In this document: piece by piece, positions 31,660-32,030 of the stretch
Position numbering within the stretch: position 1 is the stretch's first letter
Layout: every line of letters begins with the position of its first letter
Assembly (NCBI RefSeq): GCF_900110215.1
Contig: NZ_FOCX01000003.1
Coordinates: 186,001-250,000 of the forward strand
Direction of reading: 5' to 3'
Length of the DNA stretch: 64,000 nt
DNA from: Halorientalis persicus
Lineage (GTDB): Archaea; Halobacteriota; Halobacteria; Halobacteriales; Haloarculaceae
The notes under the pieces: generated by a model
The model's database searches: none
Told to the model about the DNA's origin: nothing
What the model saw: only the letters and a program-made list of their open reading frames with translations
Translations under genes and position numbers: made by a program

Positions 31660-31741
31660 GCCAGGATGGCCGAACGGTAAGGCGCACGCCTGGAAAGCGT
31701 GTTCCCTTCCGGGATTCTGGGTTCAAATCCCAGTCCTGGCG
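31660..31741 (+). tRNA. tRNA-Ser (GGA anticodon)
   Basis: An 82-nt type II tRNA. Acceptor stem GCCAGGA/TCCTGGC with discriminator G; D-arm GCC...GGC; anticodon arm CACGC-CTGGAAA-GCGTG with anticodon GGA at 31692-31694; long variable arm (TTCCC...GGGAT); T-arm CTGGGTTCAAATCCCAG. CCA is not encoded. Its last 26 bases plus the next base are repeated exactly at 31895-31921. Confidence 0.96.
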
Positions 31742-31742
31742 T
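31716..31742 (+). repeat. Putative att site, left copy (tRNA-Ser 3' end)
   Basis: A 27-bp direct repeat covering the T-arm and acceptor 3' half of the tRNA gene plus one base. The identical second copy is at 31895-31921. This is the usual footprint of tyrosine-recombinase integration into a tRNA 3' end. Confidence 0.75.
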
Positions 31743-31894
31743 GTCTGTGACGAGCAACCCGTGAGCGACGCCGACCGTCAGCGAGGCGTCGCTCACTCCT
31801 CGCGAGTCACGACCGACAGTGGATTTGAAGCCCTGGAAGACGCAGCCCCGGGAGCGCAGTGAACGGAGTGAGCGAGCACCCCGGACCGTCTTCC
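31743..31894. mobile_element. Tiny insertion between duplicated tRNA-Ser 3' ends
   Basis: The repeat period is 179 bp, leaving 152 bp between the repeat copies. No ORF of note. It contains a perfect 12-bp stem (31761-31772 with 31785-31796, 12-nt loop) and an 8-bp stem GGAAGACG/CGTCTTCC (31835-31842 with 31887-31894) that ends exactly at the right repeat. GGATTTGAAGCCC near 31821-31833 looks like an inverted, imperfect T-arm. It could be an integration remnant or a minimal integrated element mobilised in trans. Confidence 0.55.
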
Positions 31895-31921
31895 TCTGGG
31901 TTCAAATCCCAGTCCTGGCGT
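31895..31921 (+). repeat. Putative att site, right copy
   Basis: Exact 27-bp copy of 31716-31742, without the 5' part of a tRNA. Structured element copy E begins within 2 nt of its end. Confidence 0.75.
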
Positions 31922-32030
31922 ACCACCTTTTTACTTCGTCGGGTGGCGGCACGGCCGCCACCCTCCTCGCAAAAACGTGGGCGAAAAACGGGCCGAACTC
32001 GCGGCGTCGCCGCGAGTTCGGTACGATACC
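31922..32030 (+). repeat. Intergenic multi-hairpin element, copy E
   Basis: Left arm CCACCTTTTTAC at 31923; perfect 10-bp hairpin with loop ACG 31941-31963; right arm GCAAAAACGTGGGCGAAAAA 31969-31988; perfect 13-bp hairpin with loop GTC 31993-32021; terminus GGTACGATACC 32020-32030. Its last hairpin shares its outer 11 bp and terminus with copy C. Confidence 0.85.

Follow-up and report, generated by a model that had tools for sequence, protein, structure and literature searches.

A gene-free double-hairpin unit behind a tRNA-Ser gene of Halorientalis persicus belongs to a haloarchaeal class of tandem arrays at tRNA 3′ ends

The window, a stretch of 64,000 nucleotides of the Halorientalis persicus genome (contig NZ_FOCX01000003.1), contains an intact tRNA-Ser(GGA) gene whose 3′ end is repeated downstream. 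The following features were identified on the forward strand of this locus:

31660..31741, + strand, intact tRNA-Ser(GGA) gene that anchors the unit (ARAGORN; Rfam RF00005, 61.8 bits)
31716..31742, + strand, left copy of a 27-nt exact direct repeat (repeat finder)
31722..31741, + strand, tRNA tail T54-N73, the part copied across the class (sequence; class-wide identity profile)
31742..31920, + strand, one unit of 179 bp, from just after N73 of the tRNA to the copied N73, missing at the empty sites of genomes G001 and G009 (repeat finder; relatives' loci)
31747..31810, + strand, small hairpin S with 26-nt arms (31747-31772 and 31785-31810), 77% complementary, and a 12-nt loop (inverted-repeat pair; fold)
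31821..31832, + strand, left outer arm of the large hairpin H, GGATTTGAAGCC, complementary to the tRNA T-arm (inverted-repeat pair; class-wide test)
31835..31842, + strand, left inner arm of H, GGAAGACG (sequence; pairing in folds; covariation in relatives)
31861..31872, + strand, apical GAAC-GGA-GTGAG of H, of the C-GNA-G triloop type (sequence; motif in 78 of 123 relatives)
31887..31894, + strand, right inner arm of H, CGTCTTCC (sequence; folds)
31895..31921, + strand, right copy of the 27-nt repeat, which covers the right outer arm of H as well as the copied tail T54-N73 at 31901-31920 (repeat finder)
31898-31909, + strand, right outer arm of H, GGGTTCAAATCC, within the right repeat
31922..31980, + strand, flank beginning with ACCACCTTTTT, which directly follows the tRNA in empty sites and is also a dispersed repeat itself (relatives' loci)

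The two copies of the 27-nt repeat were spaced by 179 nt in the repeat search of the window, an exact match far beyond chance, and the duplication of the tRNA-Ser 3′ end noticed in the original prediction was in this way recovered. The extent given there for the duplicated part is right for the exact match of 27 nt and too wide for the part copied throughout the class, which runs from G52/G53 to N73 and here from T54 to N73; the last T of the repeat is one base extra beyond it. No gene-like ORF was found inside the unit, the mechanical ORFs either straddling the tRNA and the repeat or representing 5′ extensions of the next gene. When folded as RNA, the interior yielded -85.8 kcal/mol versus -66.5 ± 4.3 in 200 shuffles (z -4.48), none of which was as good, and hairpin H folded as DNA gave a z of -3.61. 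The picture of an interior without ORF but with two strong stems was thereby confirmed. The apex of H is only loosely paired in the minimum-energy RNA and DNA folds. The right stem had been thought to end exactly at the right repeat. There is a stem at this place, but the T-arm of the repeat itself forms the right arm of H and pairs with the left outer arm over 12 nt (92% complementary). The TCT at 31895-31897 resembles the usual CTCTGG flank of this type of hairpin. A known RNA family was ruled out as the identity of the unit, since only the tRNA reached the gathering score in an Rfam scan of the unit, SNORD116 (21 bits versus 35) staying below the cut-off.

The flank extending from ACCACCTTTTT over a hairpin to AAAAACGTGGGCGAAAAA (31922-31990 of the window; loci L002-L007) is dispersed, with many matches in the source genome and in relatives. 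At several sites of the source genome it lies without a listed tRNA nearby. Its appearance is that of an inverted element similar to a terminator.

Related genomes were inspected for an empty tRNA-Ser site as the original prediction had proposed, and such sites were present within the same genus (G001) and in another genus of the same family (G009, locus L035). In G001, the flank found after the right repeat in the window directly adjoins the tRNA (q496-628, corresponding to G001:C1:323489-323633); the single tRNA end matches both window repeat copies and the flank continues from there. In G009, the sequence reads tRNA..GCG followed immediately by TACCACCTTTTTT. By comparison with these loci the empty sites are precise. 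A third congener (G002, L011) kept the spacer S but showed another hairpin type between the same arms, while G007 harbors a window-type unit with a shorter tip and G003 one with an insertion in the copied T-arm. This insertion (L012, behind tRNA-Ser of G003) is a GC-rich palindrome of about 60 bp that interrupts the T-arm copy of the orthologous unit. The last 16 nt recurred (up to 2 mismatches) in 15 of 30 tRNA-Ser(GGA) loci, our own included; the other 15, at least one of which (L017) retains a degraded unit, had no second copy. The duplication is therefore not common to all relatives, whereas its presence in all of them had been named as the outcome that would speak against integration. The two empty sites and the alternative hairpin of G002 support the predicted integration at the 3′ end of the tRNA, by which this end is duplicated.

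With its 179 bp, the segment is a single member of a class of ORF-less units with two hairpins, which form tandem arrays immediately 3′ of haloarchaeal tRNA genes. The units measure about 100-180 bp and, judged from their sequences, share one layout: the small hairpin S, the large imperfect hairpin H and a copy of the anchoring tRNA from G53 to N73. The idea that a deletion left this unit as the lone remainder of a larger element is not supported, because units of this architecture and of similar size, often in tandem, follow tRNA genes of many isotypes and genera. The pattern GGATTTGAA N45-75 TTCAAATCC occurred in 32 of 58 relatives, the reversed control being zero in all of them. Nearly all of its loci that were read lie behind a tRNA (Ala, Arg, Asp, Glu, Gly, Leu, Lys, Phe or Ser), with the right arm continuing into the 3′ end of the own tRNA. 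Within a sample of the phylum, the pattern was found in 31 of 53 genomes of the order versus 3 of 241 outside; these three were rejected, as the core was missing and they look like chance matches.

Fetched loci of named genomes were also scanned with a type-A pattern consisting of only the type-A core and a generic T-loop, and at least 124 matches were obtained. A tRNA lay within 1.5 kb upstream in 111 of the 124 matches listed, 99 of which matched the tail of their own tRNA at 90% or more (median distance 112 nt). Among the 13 listed matches without a tRNA within this distance, L290 sits 2.7 kb from its tRNA, past an integrase remnant, nine are located within 600 bases of the locus edge, and three (L263, L280, L286) retain tRNA remnants upstream. 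Named hosts among the matches listed include Haloarcula, Haloferax, Halorubrum, Natrialba, Natronorubrum, Halobacterium and Natronomonas. At L286 (position 2813, minus strand), the 3′ half of a tRNA-Gly is fused at the T-arm GGG straight to ATTTGAA, the inverted arm of a hairpin unit, the junction lying within the T-arm palindrome.

A census of 143 tRNA genes from four related haloarchaeal genomes, in which tail copies up to 1.35 kb downstream were counted, revealed 63 genes with one to four downstream copies of their own 3′ end (G000, 15/33; G003, 22/41; G007, 12/35; G008, 14/34). In total there were 106 tail copies, 65 of them exact over 20 nt. As a control, tails were tested behind tRNAs for other amino acids of the same genome, which gave 49 hits out of 4744. 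The census covered 33 of 69 (G000), 41 of 70 (G003), 35 of 42 (G007) and 34 of 42 (G008) Rfam tRNA matches, the genes outside being unlisted, unfetched or without recognisable T-loop. The cluster L198 (only 16-17/20 hits under a looser criterion) and the G003 tRNA cluster at 2240734-2244630 were left out. Because the looser tail criterion had a control rate of 8% (658/8218), it was replaced by one weighting the acceptor side. Arrays comprise up to four copies, e.g. at Leu(taa) and Ser(cga) of G003, and copy numbers vary among congeners, Glu(ctc) having three copies in G003 and none in G000 and G007. Both the number and the content of the units are thus variable within one genus.

Two further observations concern tRNA loci of G000. 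L198 (G000:C22:15570-21114) contains about 30 tRNA genes of nearly all isotypes in approximately 4 kb of a 37-kb contig. Similar clusters exist at G003:C1:2240734-2244630 and G002:C4:112978-117118. The tRNAs of this type of cluster are without arrays, and the clusters are probably of viral or plasmid origin. At L067 (G000:C42:67271, ~1320-1440), a two-tail array lies behind a tRNA-like sequence that was not called by ARAGORN and whose T-stem resembles the flank of the hairpin core (GCGTGG), possibly a damaged or intron-bearing tRNA.

The borders of the copied part were determined on the 106 copies. Identity between tRNA and copy was 0.25 at position -3, 0.82 and 0.92 at G52 and G53, 0.92-1.0 over T54-N73, 0.57 at +1 and mostly about 0.4 farther on, whereby the values inside are inflated by the selection of the copies on 20-nt similarity and only the edges are informative. 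These edges are sharp. Reverse transcription of a mature tRNA or of a 3′ tRNA fragment was ruled out as the origin, since none of the 106 copies is followed by CCA.

In hairpin H, the right arm continues into the T54-N73 copy and the left arm is complementary to the T-arm of the own tRNA. Ten of ten positions were complementary to the own T-arm in 29 of 103 units and at least eight in 78, whereas tails of other sequence gave 8 and 484 of 822, respectively, the latter rate being high because T-loops resemble each other. On these counts the tails are specific for their tRNA, and the left arms largely so. A by-eye impression that the left arm reaches into the acceptor strand was dropped, as identity beyond the T-arm fell to 0.53, 0.46, 0.31 and lower. 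In 123 type-A hairpins, two inner-stem positions were paired in 119 and 121 cases versus means of 47 and 56 in shuffles, with A-T, G-C and C-G alternatives all in use. One position of the outer bubble showed fewer pairs than the shuffles (7 of 123 versus 37.5) and is thus kept as a bubble. The tip showed the C-GNA-G triloop in 78 of the 123 hairpins, N being any of the four bases; in DNA, GNA triloops have an exceptionally high stability.

In view of the strong covariation of the stem, a selected trailer structure has to be regarded as a serious rival to any mobile unit. The arrays would then be a cis element of the tRNA transcript or gene (a trailer RNA or a structure for termination or processing), varied by ordinary duplication and gene conversion, and the tail copies would be the pairing partners of the left arm. 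The covarying inner stems, the kept bubble, the fit of the left arm to the own tRNA and the position of the units between the tRNA and the flank that adjoins it in empty sites are all in line with this explanation. Nevertheless, we consider it improbable. There is no copy at 56% of the tRNA genes of the census, copy number and hairpin type differ among congeners, and about 10 nt would suffice for pairing, yet identity reaches exactly to N73.

To relate the arrays to integrases, 30 integrase loci were taken, 29 with an upstream tRNA and one without. A tail copy lay between tRNA and integrase in 2 of the 29 elements beside a tRNA, while 27 are located directly behind the tRNA. At L398 (G242), the order is tRNA-Gly(tcc), unit, tail, integrase (369 aa, PF00589, 1.8e-14), a DUF7342 protein and a third ORF. 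On the right side there follow a longer tRNA 3′ copy starting from the anticodon loop, another unit, whose hairpin is identical, and one more tail. The loci L405 and L406 encode integrases 89-91% identical to that of L398, but there the left end of the element lies directly on the tRNA with no unit. In comparison, the tRNA and the element of L398 are separated by an additional unit, so that either an array tail served the element as attB or this unit was a later arrival. The locus L419 at tRNA-Glu(ctc) exhibits an L398-like layout when compared to L413, L414 and L420, and broken integrases reside behind units in L290 and L318. An integrase element thus appears to be seated on an array tail at one locus (L398), and three more loci are compatible with this. 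The L398 element is a putative SNJ2-type element, called so by its gene order and by the description of IntSNJ2 in a review, where it is accompanied by two helper proteins (PMC8371274).

Such contacts could mean that the tail copies are spare landing sites, kept to catch tRNA-targeting integrases so that the tRNA gene is spared. The elements of L398 and L419 are readable as sitting on the array tail and off the tRNA, the broken integrases of L290 and L318 are in favor, and for SNJ2-type integrases, attachment cores of only 13-14 nt are reported at tRNA 3′ ends (PMC8371274). We think this quite unlikely, given that nearly all elements beside a tRNA are directly behind it (though arrays there may have been displaced), that the L398 layout is also readable as a unit inserted after the element, and that the hairpins are left unexplained.

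The arrays were then compared unit by unit. In 31 arrays with at least two copies, the first copy was the better one in 14 and the last in 1, with 16 ties (p = 0.001), the proximal tail thus being better preserved. At Lys(ctt), unit 2 of G000 corresponded to unit 1 of G003 (97%), and at Arg(tct), unit 1 of G000 to unit 2 of G007 (91%). These comparisons point to one extra tRNA-proximal unit in one genome each, and in Lys(ctt) of G000 the core type of the extra unit differs from that of its neighbour. The youngest part of an array therefore seems to be the one beside the tRNA. Of 90 cores, 74 had their best match at a different tRNA (50 in another genome, 24 within the genome itself), and 16 had it at the same tRNA of another genome; 85% was reached by 26, 14 and 13 of these matches, respectively. 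The G000 units Arg(cct) 1 and Lys(ttt) 2 have a 42-nt core in common except for its first two bases. Cores are thus shared between isotypes, and since they occur at different tRNAs with tails of the own tRNA, they apparently travel between tRNA genes while the tails stay specific. At L397 (G027:C6), two tRNA-Gly(gcc) genes 1.7 kb apart are each followed by an identical 77-nt hairpin, and a methyltransferase-like ORF and a membrane-protein-like ORF lie between them.

Some neighbouring units are alike, as units 1 and 3 at Leu(taa) of G003, which possess the same 24-nt left-arm stretch. This would be expected of a local tandem duplication by slippage or unequal recombination without any site-specific enzyme. 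We judge such an origin very unlikely, because the new proximal Lys(ctt) unit has a core type unlike its neighbour, most cores have their best match at other tRNAs, and the copied part begins inside the T-arm and stops at N73 instead of following a longer homologous block. Highly improbable is also a collapse of integrative elements, by which a unit brought beside attP remains as a scar at the tRNA after tail-by-tail deletion of the element body: units flank the element of L398 and stand beside the broken integrases of L290 and L318, partial tRNA duplications of Haloquadratum are described as undergoing repeat-mediated deletion (PMC3119063), and proximal growth would follow, but no unit was present at the left end of 27 of the 29 elements and the same element family occurs in L405/L406 without a unit.

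We favor recombination at the tRNA 3′ end because of the precise empty sites, the restored tRNA, the borders following the mature tRNA, the proximal growth and the contact with a tRNA-specific integrase. That the units are inserted and turned over by site-specific recombination at this place, by a candidate enzyme acting in trans, has in our estimation about an even chance of being correct. The enzyme might be a tyrosine integrase that recognises tRNA 3′ ends and is provided by transient or resident integrative elements. It would recombine the tail of a unit with that of the tRNA, whereupon the newcomer would provide the last 20 nt of the tRNA, and the old tail together with any older units would be pushed downstream. 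Recombination between tails could also delete or swap units. The crossover may lie at G53/T54 or within the tail, and H may be the recognised or folded site. The tails could be identical to the tRNA exactly up to the mature end, with a diverging interior, because each tail may at some point form the end of the tRNA itself; selection on tails that take over this role after each event would agree with an identity reaching to N73.

Several findings argue against recombination of this kind. There is no integrase gene near the window unit, and none of 18 PF00589 hits (G000, 13; G008, 5) adjoined the arrays read in a by-eye comparison. The L398-type integrase (E ≤ 1e-20) is absent from G000, G003 and G008, all of which have arrays, which implies that it is not needed as a resident enzyme. 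No viral relative of this integrase was found. The type-A pattern was not detected in 2.9 million viral contigs and the window unit did not match phage and plasmid records; hence, no extrachromosomal form is known. The palindrome pattern occurred in 74 viral contigs, which were dismissed as carriers, for none contained a haloarchaeal core and the matches were taken as chance. A tail copy precedes the integrase in only two of the elements examined, and the strong covariation of the stem would also fit a selected, non-mobile RNA or DNA structure. Moreover, a simple exchange of tails leaves unexplained how one core fits many isotypes at both arms. A route via folded DNA or selection after arrival are our guesses for this fit. 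The minimal element moved in trans suggested by the original prediction accordingly remains the best lead, though neither the enzyme nor an extrachromosomal copy was found. More tentatively, and with considerable doubt, the arrays may be envisaged as class-wide gene-free cassette arrays at tRNA T-loops, whose shared hairpin cores pass from one tRNA gene to another and become adapted at both arms to the T-arm of the new host tRNA, possibly via a folded single-stranded intermediate as in integrons, new units being placed beside the tRNA.

If recombination at the tRNA 3′ end is true, a considerable proportion of the tRNA genes across an entire archaeal class would be accompanied by a dynamic array, none of which is described in the literature searched, and each growth of an array would rewrite the last 20 nt of a tRNA gene. 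The history of recombination at tRNA genes could be read from the arrays, which would also provide naturally varied attachment sites for archaeal integrases and a way of testing whether folded DNA sites are used beyond bacterial integrons. For annotation, it is important that tail copies mimic attR sites and can mislead finders of proviruses and genomic islands. No published description of such arrays was encountered in the full-text literature searched; subscription papers were thinly covered, so the arrays may be known elsewhere.

The units resemble tRNA-targeted archaeal integrative elements (SNJ2-type and related tyrosine integrases) by insertion at the tRNA 3′ end, restoration of the tRNA and duplication of its end, and an element of this type contacts an array tail in L398. 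The window unit has the duplicated tRNA 3′ end as att sites and a precise empty site in relatives, but no integrase gene inside its 179 bp. In contrast to those elements, the units carry neither an integrase nor any other gene, are only 100-180 bp long, stand behind many isotypes per genome and were not found on the viral or plasmid records searched. A copied tRNA 3′ end is also reported for Haloquadratum, where partial tRNA duplications of 22-43 nt bound proviruses (PMC3119063); the interior of our units differs from such prophages in being a hairpin of constant design. A motif downstream of tRNA genes of Methanopyrus is unlike the haloarchaeal units (PMC5217627).

With MITEs and REP-type extragenic palindromes the units have in common that they are short, gene-free, palindromic and dispersed. 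They differ by their anchoring at tRNAs, by ends that follow the host tRNA, by the 20-nt copied end and by the lack of a fixed terminal repeat; MITEs are marked by fixed terminal inverted repeats, a short target duplication and dispersed sites, whereas here the outer arms follow each tRNA. Like integron cassette arrays or clusters of attC sites lacking integrase, the units are arranged in tandem, each ending in an imperfect hairpin, and growth apparently takes place at one fixed end. As in attC, the outer arms pair, a bubble stays unpaired and the tip varies, a likeness of the fold (paired outer and inner boxes) in form only. The R′ box of integron attC sites is GTTRRRY, while the right arm of the units is GTTCAAAT, with the T-arm as outer site. 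Unlike in integrons, there are no ORF cassettes and each locus has its own tail. An integron identity via a resident integrase was ruled out, as TIGR02249 exceeded the cut-off in none of 29 genomes (weak sub-threshold hits in 21). Thus, while lacking defining features of integrase elements, integrons and MITEs, the arrays act like tRNA-targeted integration and look like arrays of folded sites.
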